Origin: Kryptolebias marmoratus | Lineage: Eukaryota; Chordata; Actinopteri; Cyprinodontiformes; Rivulidae | Assembly: GCF_001649575.2 (NCBI RefSeq) | Contig: NC_051436.1 | Coordinates: forward strand, 10,441,819-10,505,818 | Length of the DNA: 64,000 nucleotides | Reading direction: 5' to 3' | Shown here: piece after piece, positions 4,401-55,078 of the stretch | Numbering within the stretch: the stretch's first letter is position 1 | How the letters are laid out: the number at the start of each line of letters is the position of its first letter | Position numbers and translations under genes: made by a program | Notes under the pieces: model-generated | What the model was told of the DNA's origin: nothing | Databases searched by the model: none | Seen by the model: the letters and a program-made list of their open reading frames with translations, nothing else

Positions 4401-7128
4401 ATTTCATCAGAAAAGAGTTTTTATACTTTCAGCTTCTTTTAGTCGCTCCGGATACTTGTGTCAAACATCTACAACCGGATGTAAAGAGCGTAACTCCTAC
4501 ATCGGGTCCAGGTCTCTTTAAACAGCCCGCCACCATGATAGCATATCCGTCTGTCTGTTAGCAAAATATCTCGTGACCCGCTGGACAGGCTTTAAAGAAA
4601 CCCTTGGCGAGTGATCACCAGATGCACCTCTACAACTGATTAACTTTCGGAGTCGACACGATTCAAGATGGCCGCCACAGCTAAGCAACCTTAGGCAACA
4701 CGAGGATGGCTGTAACTCGGTCAGATTTACAGATATTGAGCTGAAACTTGGTGTGGTAGTAGCTGAGAGTTAGTCTCAACATATACTCTGAGCGCTGACA
4801 GATCGCATGAGACCACAGTTTTTTTTTTTTATTCCGAGCACAGATCCGGTTCTTGGACATTAAGGCAGTTAACCGCCAATTTATAAAGCCCAATTTTTTT
4901 TTTATTAGCTTTTGTCTCATTATTAAAATATTCGTGCACAGATTCTGAACATGTTTGCGATGTTCGGAAGGCGTGGGGCTGCTAACAGCCAGGCGGTCGT
5001 GTGATCGGGCCGCGGCGGCGCTCCTCCCGCGCACCGGGGGCCGAAAAAGGCACAAAATGAAACACGTTCGCCTTTTCATACTTGAAGCTGGGCTGATGAC
5101 ACACGCGTCACGCCCGTCTGGTTTGGGGAGAGAGATATGTGGAAACGTTTTGACGTGTTTCGTCATCCTCTGCGTGACTCGTGTTTTTTTTTTTTTTCAA
5201 CCTTTCATTCACAAACGGAAACGCTGCGTACCGCAGACACCAGCGGAAACAGAAACGGTCAAAGGAAGGTTCAAGACTGGAAAACAAAACCCAAATATGG
5301 TCTTTTCCAGGTTTTACATTCACTAAATCGAACCTTAAGTGAACAAAAACACACAACAGATTCCACCACGTTATTGTTTACTAAACGAAGCCAAAATGGA
5401 GAAGCTGGTAAAACCTGCCTCCATCTTTGCTGCTTCCTCAGCTGCAGTCAGGAGCTGCTGATCAGACGTATCGATGAACTGATCGCCTCCATAACAGCAG
5501 CAGTTTGATCGCTTCGCTGCTCCGGAGTGGACAGGTGTGTGTGTTAACACGACGCCGAGGCGGAAAGACATCAGCAATGACCTCAGAGAGAAGCAGCTGT
5601 TGGGAGGGGTCAAAGGTCATTTCCGAACAGAGAGAAAGATTCTTCACGTTTCAAACAGCCGCCTGTCGGCCCGGGAGTGGAGGTCGCAGCAGATTCACCC
5701 CGAGGTCAGACTGTGCAACGACCAGAGAAACTCTACAGGCCTCAGTTAGCAGGTCAAAGGTCAAAGGACATGACAGGACAATCAGAAGAAGACGGAACAT
5801 GTTTGTCTCGTCTGGAAGGACTGCAGGAGAAAACCTCGTCTCTCTGAAGACAACATGGCCGCCCGGCTGAGTTTCATCTGAATGAAACAGAAGACTTCTG
5901 GAACAACGTCCTCTGGACCAGAGTGGACATGTTTACCCATAATGCACAGCGGCACGGCTGGAGAAAACCAAACAGCAGCTGTCGGCACGGTGGTGGAGGG
6001 CTGATGGTTTGGGCTCCTCGCAGTCACCGAGTCGACCCTGAACTCCTCTGGAGACCAAAGGACTCTAGAGTCAAACGTGAGGACATCTGTCCAACAGCTG
6101 AAGTTTGGACCAAACTGGGTCCTAAAACAGGACAATGATCCACAAACAGCAGCTGCTCTACAACAGAATGACTCAACGAGAAGAGGATCCAGGTTCTGGA
6201 ACGGTCCAGTTAAAGTCCAGAACCTGAAGAGAGCCGAGCAGAACCTCAAAGAACTGAAGCAGTGCTGTAAAGAAGGAGTGGGTCAAAGTTCTTCTACAGC
6301 CATGTGACTGATTGTTATCGCAGCTGAATCATGGGGTGGATTTAGTTCTTTCACACAGTTCTGATTAACAAGTAATGACTCGGTGGAATCTGTTGTGCGT
6401 TTTCATTCACTCGAGGTTAGATTTTGTTTTAGGTATCAGGACGTAAGAAAGTGACCCGGTCTTTAACAGGTTGCGTAATGATACGCAACCTGTTAAAGAC
6501 CGGGTCACTTTCTTACGTCCTGATACCTAAAACAATAAAACTGAAAGAGGGCGGGACTTCCTTTTTTTTTAAATTTATTTATGTGAAAGGAATTTTGTGC
6601 AACAGTGACTCACGTCTGACCGAACCGGTTTTTCTTTTTTCCTGTTGACAATCACCCGGGACCTGTCGGTGAAAAGGTCACTACGAGTCAGCTGGAATCC
6701 AGCTCGTGTCAAATCTTAAAAAAAAAAAAAAAAAAAAATCTGAATCTTGGGTGTGTGGCTGCTCCACCTACTTTCCAGGAAACTGAAAAAAAAAAAACAA
6801 GATTTCACTTCTGAACCCTCCAGCAGGGAGGAGTTCACCGGAGCAGAGCGAGACGAGTCAGCGCGCAAGAATCCCAGGAATAGGTTTCAAATTTCACCAT
6901 CATCGGGAACGGGGCGCTCGCTCCACGGAAACTCTGACGCGCGGGTCGCAATCACGACCCGACGGCCGCGAAACCTAACGAGTTCAAAAGGTCAAATGGC
7001 ATCAAAGTCCGTTTCTGTGTCAGCCGGGTTCCCCCAGCGAGGTCCCCCCGGAGCAATCCTGGAAGACGGCGGCAGGAATGTTCGGAAAATTTTGTGTTGT
7101 TTGGGAAACACTCACCCGGAGCAGACAT
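1416..7128 (-). CDS. plscr3: Phospholipid scramblase, PLSCR3-like (5' part; 3' end beyond left edge)
   Basis: Scramblases are calcium-activated, membrane-anchored proteins that move phospholipids between bilayer leaflets; PLSCR3 is linked to mitochondria. Four minus-strand exons join in frame with GT-AG introns: 7128-7116 (MSAPG), 3040-2784, 1786-1744 and 1636-1416, giving 178 codons. The N-terminal region (residues 5-90) is rich in Pro, Gly and Tyr with PGPMGPGP-type repeats, as in scramblase SH3/WW-binding tails. It is followed by GVPPGLEYLTQ, then IDQILIHQKVELLE, FETNNQYEIKNSLGQ, a CCTRNCCG motif, and CWCPCC at about 170-175, which matches the family's palmitoylated cysteine cluster. The exon ending LQE is in phase 0 with a GT donor, and no later exon (calcium-binding loop, C-terminal TM helix) was found left of 1416, so the gene continues out of the window. 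The family is certain; the choice of PLSCR3 rests on synteny with 17p13.1 neighbours. Confidence 0.85.
2148..2735 (+). mobile_element. Internally deleted Tc1-like transposon remnant
   Basis: The left end (about 2150-2215) carries AATGATTTGCAAATCC, and the right end (about 2655-2733) carries its inverted counterpart TTTGCAAATCCCTGCGTTC, ending near GAAGCTGGGGCTG. Between them, near 2290-2330, the plus strand encodes SASLMVWGCIS, which matches the VWG..S block of Tc1/mariner transposases. The remnant is about 585 bp against roughly 1.5 kb expected, so it is a non-functional deletion derivative. It lies in scramblase intron 2. Confidence 0.6.
3480..3592. mobile_element. Tc1-like terminal inverted repeat fragment
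   Basis: The stretch ends with GACTTTTTCAGAACTGGGGTT (minus one base at an end). Preceding segments match, in inverted orientation, the terminus at 12690-12760 (CAACCCCAGCTCCGAAAGAG). It is a terminus of the same Tc1 family as the copies at 2.1 and 12.7 kb; the rest of the element is not evident. Confidence 0.5.
4547..4810 (+). repeat. Dispersed repeat with CTGTTAGCAAAATATCTC core
   Basis: The copy runs CTGTTAGCAAAATATCTCG, then about 100 bp later AAGATGGCCGCCACAGCTAA, then TGTGGTAGTAGCTGAGAG. The same ordered blocks occur at 26700-26990, 43485-43720 (two partial copies) and 44275-44560, with partial copies at 54770-54840 and 56755-56945. An inverted partial copy lies at about 3660-3830. The consistent internal order over about 260 bp shows a dispersed repeat, probably a non-autonomous element; its class is unknown. 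Confidence 0.65.
5325..6425 (+). mobile_element. Degenerate Tc1/mariner-like transposon
   Basis: Inverted terminal repeats of about 40 bp are visible: 5331-5370 contains CACACAACAGATTCCACCA, and 6379-6420 contains TCGGTGGAATCTGTTGTG in reverse orientation. The 1.1-kb interior encodes recognisable transposase pieces on the plus strand, including HNAQRHGWRK and RHGGGGLMVWA (about 5930-6020), corresponding to the catalytic core of Tc1-like transposases. The reading frame is broken by stops and frameshifts, so it is a dead copy. It lies in scramblase intron 1. Confidence 0.75.
6424..6535. repeat. Perfect 54-bp-arm palindrome with a 4-nt loop
   Basis: Arms 6424-6477 and 6482-6535 are exact reverse complements, separated by ATGA (6478-6481). 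It abuts the right terminus of the Tc1-like element. There is no coding potential. It would form a very stable cruciform or hairpin. Confidence 0.9.
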
Positions 7129-7379: not shown

Positions 7380-8560
7380 AACAAACAACAGCCAAACAGA
7401 CACTAAATTTAACCAAACCTATGCTGAAGCTAAACTAATCTAAAAATGTAAACAGTGGCTAAAATTAGCAAACAGGTGCTAAAAGCTAAACAGTACCTAA
7501 ATTTAGCTAAACTGATTCTATAGCTAAGATTAGCAAAACAACAGCTGAAGTTACAAAAAAAAAAAAATTCTGACTAAAACGGATCCTACAACTAAAATTA
7601 GCAAAACAATAGCTAAAAACTAGCTAAACCGATGCTGAAACTACAATCAGCAAACTAAAAATAAAACTAAAAACAGTGGCTAAAGTAGGAAAACAGATGC
7701 TAAAATTAGCAAAACAGTAGCTAAGGCTTGCAAAACGGTAGTTAAATTTAGCAAAACTGACTTTAAAGCTAAAATGAGCAAAACCAGATGCTGACGTTAA
7801 CAGCAGACAAAATGAAAGCGGTGACTAGAACGAGTAAAACGGATCCTAAAACTAAAATCAGCAAAACAGTAGCTGAAAACTAGCTAAACAGACGCTGAAA
7901 ATAATCTAACAAAACTGATGCTAAAGCTAAAATTAGAAAACCAGCAGGTACGATTAAAACAGATGCTAATAAAGACAAAACTGTAGCTAAAAGTAACAGA
8001 AGCATAAAACTAGCTAAACTTAGCAAAATTTAGCTAAACCAATGCTAAAGCTAAAATTAGCAAAACAGTTGCTAACACTAAGATTAACAAAGTTGTACAA
8101 AGATTTAGCTACAGTGATGCTAAAGTTAAAATTAGTAAAGCAGATGCCAATATTTCCAAAACTGTAGTTAAAAATAAAACAGACGCTAAAGACAAAATCA
8201 GCTAAAGGTAGCTAAATGAATGCCTTAACTAAAACGGAGCAAAACTGTATCTAAACCGATGCTCAAGCTAAAATTTGAAAAATAGATGCTTTAATTGGGG
8301 AAAAAACAGTGGCTAAAAGTCATAAAACATATCCTCAAGCTAAAATGAGCAAAACAGCAGCTAAAATTTGCAGAACTGCAGCTAAAACTAACAAAACAGA
8401 TGCTAAAGTTAAAATCGGCTAAAGCGTATCTACAGTATCTACAGCAAGAATATAGCTAAAAGGTAACTAAACTAAAAGGAGCGAAAGAGCTTTTAAAAAT
8501 GAGGGAAGCTGCGTTTAAAAGCTAAAAAGGTGCTGAATGGTAGCCGAGAGCTAAGATTAG
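7380..8560. repeat. Degenerate AGCTAAA-rich repeat array
   Basis: About 1.15 kb is made of loosely repeated blocks such as GCTAAAATTAGCAAAACAG and AGATGCTAAAGCTAAAATTA. Spacing is irregular, roughly 30-40 bp, with many substitutions. It lies 5' of the scramblase start codon. The units are too diverged and uneven for a CRISPR array; it looks like an old minisatellite. Confidence 0.75.
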
Positions 8561-10524
8561 CAGAAGAAGACGAACATATCAGGAGGCAAAGTTTTTGTAT
8601 TTCTAGGGGTAATTTTATTTTATATAAAAGTTGAACTTTTCTGAAAAGCATCAAAGCCACAAAAAACCATTAAAAAAATATTTAAAAGTCAGAGCACACA
8701 GGAAGAGATGGATCTGAACATGACTCCAAAATACTTCCTAAAAACAGGAAACCAGGAGCAGTCCTGGATTCCTGGAACCCGAAAAACTCCGAAGATCTCC
8801 GAAGAGCCCCGAGGAGCCCCGAGGATCATCTCCTCAGATGTTTATGAGTCCACCTTCACTTCCGTTTTTGTCCCACATTAGGATAAGCAGTCCCTGCTGA
8901 GGCGTGTTTTAGCAGACACGAGGTCACGTAGCTAAGAATAAAAGAGCTAAAGTTCCAAGTTCAGCTAAAATCGACCGATTTTTAAAAAAAAAAAAAAGAA
9001 AAAAAAACTTGTTGCTGTGAAATCTGCCCCGTTACTGACCGGAAGTTGAAAAAAAAGGTCAAATTAAACCACCTACCTCCGGCTGCTGCTCGGACGGAAA
9101 GACAGAAAAACTGTTTTTTTTTTTGTTTTTTTTTCGAAGCGCCTCTCCTTCCTTTTCCCAACCTGCTTCTGGTCGCTATGCTCCTCACTCCTCACTCCTC
9201 CTTCAGCGTTTCTACGGTTTCTCCTCCTCACAGGGCGCGTCCTTCGCGGAGGGCGGGAACAGATTTGAGGAGCGACAAGCCGCCCCTCTTTTTTTAGCCG
9301 ATTTTTAAAGCGCTTTAGCTGCGGAACACTGCTTTCAGAGGGAGGCCGGAGGTCCCTGTTAGTTAATTAAAGCCGTCAGGGGAGATTTCGATCGAAAAAA
9401 AGCGGAAAAAACAAACAGCCTTTGCGTTACTCGTCGTGCGTACACACACTCGGTGTTACGGTAACGTTCGCTTTTCAAAATAAAAGCCGACCTTCTCTGG
9501 GGATTTCATATCTGACATTAATATTGATAGAAAATTAGATCTTATTTATAAAAAAGCCTTTGTTGACCAAAGTGATAGATATAAAATCAAAAATTATTAC
9601 TAAAGCAGTTAAGATGAACTCAAAAACAAGAAAATATCACAAAAAATAATAAAAATAAAAATAGACTTTCACAATAAAGTCAAACTGTTTGGTTCAATCA
9701 AGACTAAAAGCCCAGTGAAAACTAAATTATATTAAAGTATAATTATTATAATACCTACATATAGGTATGTTACTACAGACTGGTAATGAAAAACGTCAAA
9801 GTGATCAGATTTTTATTTTAAAATAAATCCCTTTAACTTTATATTATCTCACCTCTAAAGTCTGAGAAAAAATGCTTTCGCTGATTAAGTTAGGAGGATA
9901 TCACTTAAATTACTTTAAAATGTAAACCTAATCTGATGTTTTATTTAAAAGCCCCTTTTTTAAAGTCTTACATTTAATTAAAACCAATAAACTAAATCAG
10001 AGTAGCTGATGGTGACCCACAGGGCAGGTTTTACTTAATTTGAAGTAAAACGCATCTATTTTTTAAGGAATAGATGTAGTTTTTATGTAGAATTTTATTT
10101 TTCTTTAAACGCACCAGATTAGATATTTTATAGCTGACTGAAATGTCCTTATTTAAACACCGGTCTGTATTTTACTTTGAAAGCAGCGCTTTACCGTTAT
10201 ACCGGAAAAAAGCCGCACCGAAACATGTAAAAGGCGGGTTGGAGCGGCTGTCAGTGTCTGCAGCAACCACAAGAGGGCGCCATTTCTCCTGAAAACAGCA
10301 AGTTTCCTCGGCGAACAAGTAAACAAAATAAAACATTTAAATGCAGGTAGTTTAGCTCCTTTTTCTCTGTAAATCACATGGAGATCTTCTGACTGTAAGC
10401 AAGGAAAATCATTTAAAAAACAACCTACAGGTTCTTCTTCGATGGTTGTGGTTCAAAACAAACAAACAAAAATAAAACCATTTAAAGAACATCACATTTC
10501 GGACCCCCCCAGACAACAAATTTA

Positions 10525-13401: not shown

Positions 13402-13501
13402 NNNNNNNNNNNNNNNNNNNNNNNNNNNNNNNNNNNNNNNNNNNNNNNNNNNNNNNNNNNNNNNNNNNNNNNNNNNNNNNNNNNNNNNNNNNNNNNNNNN
13501 N
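13402..13501. other. Assembly gap (100 N)
   Basis: Exactly 100 N, a conventional placeholder for a gap of unknown size. It interrupts a Tc1-like element. Confidence 0.99.
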
Positions 13502-14182
13502 GCAGGCAGCTTCTTTCCCCATCTAAAGTACGAGTGACAAAAATGACAAAACTGCGAAAAGTACAGAGTGGTAAAATCAAGGTCCTAACTTCATCAAGAT
13601 CTTACAGAAATAGATTCAGACGATCTGTCTGAATTATTGCTTTAGAAAAAAAGAAAAAGAAAAGATCCAAACCAGCTGAAACTGGCCTGGGAATCATCTA
13701 AGTACCCCAAGGCAGGCACGTAAACAGAAAGCTACAACATCCTCAACAAAGTGGACTTATCGCCCGCTCCGATCTGCCCCAGGATCCAGAATGTGTCCAG
13801 GGGGTTGAGTGTGTGTGTGTGGGGTGGGGTGGGGGGTGGGGGGTCGTGTGAATGTATGTACGTGTATCAAGACATGTTGCCATCACTTCAGAGCGGCTTC
13901 AGAGGCTGGAAATAAATGATGCCGGCCAGCGAGGCGGCAGATTTAATTGGCTGGGCCTAAACGGTCCCATTAAAGTGGCAGAATATAATCCCACCCTTGA
14001 AATCGTGGCCACAAATAGCCCTGGCTCCGATTGAAGGCGCACAGATCCGCCACGAGCAGAGACCCGCGCAGAGGCAGGAGATTCGAGGTAAGCTGCTTTC
14101 ACTTCACAAACATCCCGAGTCGTCTATGAAGGGACGCAGCTGACTCGGGGCTCCCTTCTTTTTTTGGATCTGCTCCCCTCAG

Positions 14183-15030
14183 ATGTTGTGCTCCAGACGT
14201 GCGCTGCCGTTCCTGATGCTTCACTTGGTGCTGGAGCAGATAGCTGCTGCCGGCGTCCCAAACAGGCCCAGAACCAAAAGGGTGAGCCTCCTCCCGTCCC
14301 CCCGCCCGAGGAGTTCGAGTCGAGGTGAAGCTTTAGAATAAAAATCTGCTTTCTGCCTTCAGGAGGTGGACTGGTTGGACCAGGAGCTCTTATCGCTCCT
14401 GTCCGATCCGGCAGACATGAGAGACCTCTCTGTGGGGGACGTGGAGGAGCGTCCCCCTCGCTCGGGGGCCGTCCCCGCTCCGACGGCGGCCGCCCCTGTC
14501 CAGAACAACCAGCACCAGCAGCAGAGCCAGAACCAGAACTCACACAAGCGCAGAGCGGATGAGAACAGGTGAGGCGTGTTCAGGAACAGCTGCTCGATCT
14601 CAAAATTTTTAGAAAACTGGGAGGTTTTTCGATTGTCAACACAGAATAATACAAAACAAAACCTTTCATAGTTTTTGTTCTCTAACAGGTACAAAAACCC
14701 CAAACATTTAAAGTAAGAAATTGAAATAAATCAAAGATCTGGATTTGTTTTTCCTGCAGGTGGAAAGTTGCTCGCTTGGATCCCATCGGACGCTTTCAAA
14801 TCCCAGCTTTCCGGAAACGAAAGGTGAGCGAAAAGGAAAAAAGAGACCGTTTGATTCAGAGATGCTCAACATTATGAGACGTCGCCGTCGCCGATTTCAC
14901 TGTTAATTTATTGTTTATTGTTGAATCGACCGTGATACTTTTTCTCCTTTCATTCCCAAAACTCCCCACAAGTTACCGAACGTATTAGATGTGATTCTGC
15001 TTGAGCTGATTCCGCGATTAACGATTAATT

Positions 15031-15078
<48 letters not shown>

Positions 15079-15769
15079 TGCAGGAATATTACTGATCCCC
15101 TTGTGTTGCTGTATTTTACTCAAACAGTGTTCACCGATATCACAGACACTGGAGTGAAACATAAATACCACCGACTGTTACACACACAGCGATGGATGTT
15201 AGGAAATATTTGGAAATTATTGTGAAAAACTGCAATAATATCAGTTGTGATAAACCCACATTTTCCTAACTTTCTTTTTAACACCTTCCATGTGTTTTAG
15301 TGAGAACGACCAATCCACCAAATATATTAGTATTTTTTATTTATTTTTAGTATTTATTTATTTATTTATTAGGGACAATGTACATTAATTAACATTCTGT
15401 AAATGTGCCTGAATGAGCCAAAAAGCTATTTTTTCATCTGTTGCTAATACATTTTCAGTATATCATATAATCCTATAGTGTAGTGACTTTTATTTTGTAT
15501 ATCAGTGATCTAGTTGTCACCAGCACTAGAAGTCCGCCGCACACATACGGGAATTAAAAACAAGAAACGGCACAAATGTGGTGCATATACAACCCGTCAG
15601 TGGACTTTTCTTGCTCCGAACAACTAATATCTATATTTTCATGCACAATTATCAGGTTTCGAAGCATCTCTTTTGCCGTTTTTAGTTGTAACTAAACTGT
15701 TTAGTGTTAAAAATAATTAAAAAACTAATTCCTTTTGTTTTTATTCTGCAGGATAAGACAAACGTCTAG
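14183..15769 (+). CDS. Unidentified small secreted peptide precursor (128 aa)
   Basis: Four coding exons join in frame: 14183-14281, 14363-14568, 14760-14823 and 15752-15769 (stop TAG). A likely non-coding first exon ends at 14087 with donor GAG/GTAAGC; the ATG follows acceptor CTCCCCTCAG. Residues 1-24 look like a signal peptide (RRALPFLMLHLVLEQIAAAG). Basic cleavage-type sites follow: KR at 32-33, KRR at 95-97 and RKRK at 120-123. Residues 34-62 are acidic (EVDWLDQELLSLLSDPADM) and 80-94 are Gln/Asn-rich. Residues 98-119 (with WKVARLDPIGRFQIPAF at 103-119) form the most peptide-like segment, closed by RKRK. There are no cysteines after the signal. A polyadenylation signal AATAAA lies at 15906-15911. 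I do not recognise the family; the prohormone layout suggests a neuropeptide or hormone precursor, which is inference. A short non-secreted basic protein is the alternative. Confidence 0.7.
15035..15076. repeat. (TA)n microsatellite
   Basis: An uninterrupted AT dinucleotide run of 42 bp in intron 3 of the peptide gene. Confidence 0.95.
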
Positions 15770-15905: not shown

Positions 15906-15911
15906 AATAAA
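15906..15911 (+). terminator. Polyadenylation signal of the peptide gene
   Basis: AATAAA 137 bp after the stop codon at 15769, followed directly by an A-run. It is the first canonical signal downstream. Confidence 0.6.

Positions 15912-54916: not shown

Positions 54917-55078
<162 letters not shown>

Follow-up and report, generated by a model that had tools for sequence, protein, structure and literature searches.

A probable five-exon killifish gene with a predicted small secreted precursor and a candidate 22-residue peptide

Analysis of 64,000 nucleotides of Kryptolebias marmoratus DNA (this whole stretch is called the window here) pointed to a five-exon killifish gene which may encode an undescribed small secreted precursor with a candidate 22-residue peptide. 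Judged from the sequence, we assign this reading a probability of roughly 0.45. Its parts differ in strength: the coding gene is probably real, secretion of its product as a precursor is somewhat favoured, and least certain of all is a role as a hormone strictly defined, which we regard as rather doubtful. If transcribed and secreted, the product would be a signalling peptide that has escaped notice within a conserved vertebrate block, or it would stem from a young secreted gene of a fish lineage. If not, the locus serves as a caution that clean prohormone-like anatomy may occur even though a very large protein collection, rich in fishes, yielded no relative.

The original prediction had described four coding exons with GT-AG introns and a frame of 128 residues. 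Joining and translating the exons reproduced the coordinates and phases exactly and gave 128 codons without an internal stop, closed by TAG, with introns of phases 0, 2, and 0 (Table 1). The AATAAA noted at 15906 is likewise present there. With the putative 5′UTR exon, the start of which we infer only (~25–30 nt 3′ of the TATA-like box), the gene would comprise five exons and ~2 kb. The likely 5′UTR intron covers positions 14088–14182, and its acceptor is located directly 5′ of the ATG. Retention of intron 3 would result in a 140-aa form ending at 14877. An assembly gap of 100 N is found at 13402–13501 of the window, ~0.5 kb before the putative core promoter.

Table 1. Features of the candidate gene (positions in the window).
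Feature	Position	Strand	Remarks
TATA-like element ATATAAT, putative core promoter	13983–13989	+	sequence read directly; function predicted
Putative 5′UTR exon	14013–14087	+	ends at donor GAG/GTAAGC, among the best 0.43% of GTs
Coding exon 1	14183–14281	+	ATG, signal-peptide-like N-terminus, RTKR at end; followed by phase 0 intron
Coding exon 2	14363–14568	+	acidic segment EVDWLDQELLSLLSDP..., P/A- and Q/N-rich spacer, KRR; followed by phase 2 intron
Coding exon 3	14760–14823	+	(R)WKVARLDPIGRFQIPAFRKRK; followed by phase 0 intron; frame without codon-score backing
Exon 4, coding part	15752–15769	+	DKTNV and TAG
AATAAA polyadenylation signal	15906–15911	+	genomic A-run next to it

The splice signals were read directly from the DNA. 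All four donors and all four acceptors, including those of the 5′UTR intron, rank within the best ~1% of the sites in the window (3,746 GT and 4,083 AG sites, scored with an approximate matrix). GC contents at the three codon positions are 0.63/0.43/0.74 in the candidate frame and 0.71/0.42/0.82 in exon 2 alone; the frame is thus close to the neighbouring genes (0.54/0.42/0.79), represented by 709 training codons from genes recognised by eye. The difference between GC3 and GC2 was reached by none of 20,000 shuffles (p 5e-5). Both strands of the window were also scanned for chains starting with a signal-like ATG and having at least two introns (each up to 1 kb) and at least 115 residues, thresholds which were chosen after the candidate had been seen. 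The candidate locus was the sole chain. A comparable one occurred at a single locus in 1,599 windows resampled by a Markov-2 model, which are poorer in donors (mean 21 versus 37 on the + strand), and nowhere on either strand of 195,436 bases sampled from elsewhere in the genome as 20 stretches of 10 kb.

These results have to be weighed against weak codon scores and an open stretch on the opposite strand. Of the six frames, the claimed one scores best in both exon 1 and exon 2, yet close to zero (0.5 and 1.8), just 2–4 bits higher than the best minus-strand frame (−1.9 and −2.6). In exon 3 (~20 codons), it scores −6.7 versus +1.7 for another frame. The minus strand over exons 1 and 2 carries an open stretch of 151 codons (14124–14579). 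The exon 3 score and the minus-strand stretch, together with the protein searches described below, which yielded no annotated relative, would fit an RNA that is spliced but non-coding, or a gene in decay, with a frame open by accident. We consider this quite improbable, given the codon periodicity, the single chain in the null windows, and 128 codons free of stops and frameshifts. Splice strength, chain rarity, and codon-position GC therefore make a coding gene likely, the C-terminal exon being its weakest part.

Regarding the protein, basic sites had been predicted at residues 32–33 (KR), 95–97 (KRR), and 120–123 (RKRK), and all of them are found at these residues. The resulting RTKR, KRR, and RKRK, at which cleavage is predicted from the sequence, bracket the candidate peptide (residues 98–119, ADENRWKVARLDPIGRFQIPAF). 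The N-terminal hydrophobic core is of limited length and runs into E18-Q19, which counts against the precursor reading; the best 11-residue Kyte-Doolittle mean of the 128-aa frame is 2.26 (residues 7–17). Residues 34–128 contain no Cys. An amidation Gly is absent from the candidate peptide: GRF is followed by QIPAFRKRK, and no Gly stands after RF. If the gene is transcribed, the N-terminus (core ALPFLMLHLVL) would direct the product to the secretory pathway, and cleavage by proteases of the furin/PC type would follow at RTKR33, KRR97, and RKRK123. This would release an N-terminal fragment of acidic character together with a basic 22-residue peptide (98–119) that carries no amide and might act extracellularly via a receptor.

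For the detection of relatives, the 128-aa frame was compared with 5.8 billion proteins, resulting in 87 word-sharing candidates, none of them at E≤1. With residues 86–128, no annotated protein of 70–224 aa had three 5-residue words in common. As a control, the osteocrin of the same fish (101 residues) was used: 91 of 96 candidates reached E≤1, all 91 with the osteocrin Pfam domain, and the named proteins among them belong to fishes, including Crenichthys, Anableps, Gambusia, and Xiphophorus at 53–57% identity. Kryptolebias is thinly covered in the collection, with one 87-aa osteocrin piece only; the osteocrin query was identical to this K. marmoratus protein over 46% of its length. Since the searches with the candidate yielded no relative while the control worked, we conclude that annotated orthologues were not found, even in other cyprinodontiforms; the search covers annotated proteins of 70–224 aa with an identity above an estimated ~40–45%. 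The original prediction had named the lack of a homologue in other teleosts as its refutation; among annotated proteins of this length, and with the control positive, the outcome went against the prediction.

Further searches agreed with the earlier statement that no family can be recognised. At E≤10, Pfam listed no model at all, not even Musclin or ANP, in a search in which the HMMER filters drop most weak matches. In the PDB, there was no match for the C-terminal piece and one chance match (E 0.87) for the whole frame. The own genome gave nothing beyond the candidate's own exons at E≤0.001, and Rfam nothing at gathering scores. The peptide words LDPIGRF, IGRFQIP, DPIGRFQ, and RLDPIGR were found in no paper of the open-licence literature searched. 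Among the matches listed, open-licence literature on neuropeptides has no occurrence of PHF23 or PLSCR3, and that on TNK1, PLSCR3, PHF23, GABARAP, and CTDNEP1 has no title on fish peptides. A survey of cichlids assigned 148 prohormone genes to 35 families (PMC4992253); of the prohormones in the part of the survey consulted, compared by name, none fits the candidate. As far as the open-licence literature goes, the gene is probably undescribed.

The candidate shares with vertebrate prohormones its short length, signal-like N-terminus, dibasic/furin-type sites, acidic spacer, and small 5′UTR exon; it differs in that no conserved mature peptide, amidation signal, disulfide, or annotated relative was found. 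Accordingly, the claim of a secreted peptide-hormone precursor held in part: the locus looks like a genuine spliced coding gene whose product has basic sites and a plausible N-terminal signal, but a conserved peptide hormone found no support, with residues 86–128 lacking a three-word relative, amidation Gly and Cys lacking, and the exon 3 frame not backed by codon usage. A receptor ligand is expected to be conserved. The missing relatives, although osteocrins of many fishes were found, hence count against a precursor or ligand, and a hormone role is unproven because no annotated protein resembling the candidate was found. It appears rather improbable that the gene is the first-seen member of a vertebrate peptide-ligand family missed by teleost annotation, or a killifish-born one, with residues 98–119 as non-amidated ligand. 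A possible, though somewhat unlikely, explanation is a small secreted protein that is restricted to one lineage or evolves very fast, is not a hormone precursor (but, e.g., a reproductive, barrier, or defence protein), and has incidental basic runs. The lack of homologues even in other cyprinodontiforms, whose osteocrins are readily found, the Q/N- and P/A-rich spacer, and the lack of a conserved peptide core are consistent with such a protein, whereas codon bias and compact exons resemble an old gene, the basic sites lie at segment borders as in prohormones, and the thin coverage of Kryptolebias lowers the weight of the missing homologues.

It is quite unlikely that the candidate is a strongly diverged representative of one of the known families, i.e., natriuretic peptide/osteocrin, PrRP/C-RFa, or somatostatin/urotensin. 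Osteocrin is the most tempting lead, because gene structure and alignment agree to some extent: the own osteocrin, spliced by eye, also has an intron adjoining the ATG followed by phase 0 and phase 2 introns, and its alignment with the candidate has p 0.009 (signal exon p 0.0005). The proteins are also similar in length, share a Cys-less peptide, and show an IDRIG/LDPIG likeness to osteocrin/musclin (PF11037). However, the p value of 0.009 rests on the signal exon and is gone over 16 fish osteocrins. Against the own osteocrin, the acidic exon has p 0.58 and the C-terminus p 0.086; across fish osteocrins, p is 0.096 for the signal exon (15 of the 16, one being left out for its N-terminal extension) and 0.13 for the C-terminus. 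Profile comparison by hhalign with the 16 gave P 0.15 and a probability of 0.4%. In addition, DRL and DRI are invariant in all 16, whereas the candidate has DPI once, with Pro in place of the Arg, and no DRL. An osteocrin ohnologue was therefore rejected on the profile comparison and family-wide tests. Two sub-threshold Musclin matches in the own genome showed no osteocrin likeness on inspection. The true osteocrin of the fish is located elsewhere, on contig C32 (100 kb, end 100283), which stops ~80 bases past the exon with the first DRL motif, so that the rest of this gene is missing from the contig. An osteocrin tail, a weak query, had no match in the own genome. Osteocrin is described as acting by competition for NPR-C (PMC10253422).

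The other known families fared no better. Natriuretic peptides are marked by a Cys ring with FG and DRI. In an ungapped register to this ring, with Cys replaced by Trp and Cys replaced by Phe, the candidate reached p 0.010 (ANP), 0.008 (CNP), and 0.074 (BNP), but residues 34–128 have no Cys, Pfam (PF00212) is silent, and a natriuretic peptide with both cysteines replaced failed the block-wise null. C-RFa was the best of 30 known peptides compared: WKVARLDPIGRF resembles the C-RFa sequence WYVGRGVRPIGRF, a short likeness to the PRLH product at PIGRF, and 33 of 60,000 shuffles reached it. The candidate peptide lies late in its precursor, unlike the peptide in PrRP precursors. PrRP needs a C-terminal amide, PrRP is located near melanophilin, and PrRP2 near MYRIP (PMC4226156). 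In the candidate, amidation is impossible with no Gly following RF, and the locus is a 17p13.1-type block; PrRP/C-RFa was rejected on these grounds and for failing the block-wise null. Under this null, none of 13 known precursors reached p 0.05 (best SST, 0.086). Somatostatin, with the highest signal-exon score of the 13 (37 to the SST signal), was dropped likewise. Somatostatin and urotensin II have a Cys-bracketed FWK core as signature; no such core occurs in the window or its two 10-kb flanks, which together contain nine chance FWK words, none of them in the gene.

The assumed setting of the gene among 17p13.1 neighbours agrees with the Pfam matches around it: a scramblase just upstream, a PHD finger, and ATG8-like, cold-shock, NIF phosphatase, GPS2, and sugar transporter domains. 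In the search giving the NIF phosphatase, GPS2, and sugar transporter, 7 of 10 neighbour stretches had no Pfam match. We take the neighbours to be PLSCR3, PHF23, CTDNEP1, GABARAP, YBX2, SLC2A4, ELP5, and TNK1, of which the ELP5 and TNK1 pieces had no Pfam match over the cut-off. Repeats were also observed in the region. Positions 5478–6282 of the window and 8834–9692 of an adjoining 10-kb flank (L009) have near letter-identical translations in opposite orientation, which resemble a Tc1/mariner-type element. Diffuse arrays of a AGCTAAAATTAGCAAAACA-type unit with periods of ~18–42 extend over 7440–8411, and a perfect AGAT array of 40.5 copies is located at 54917–55078.
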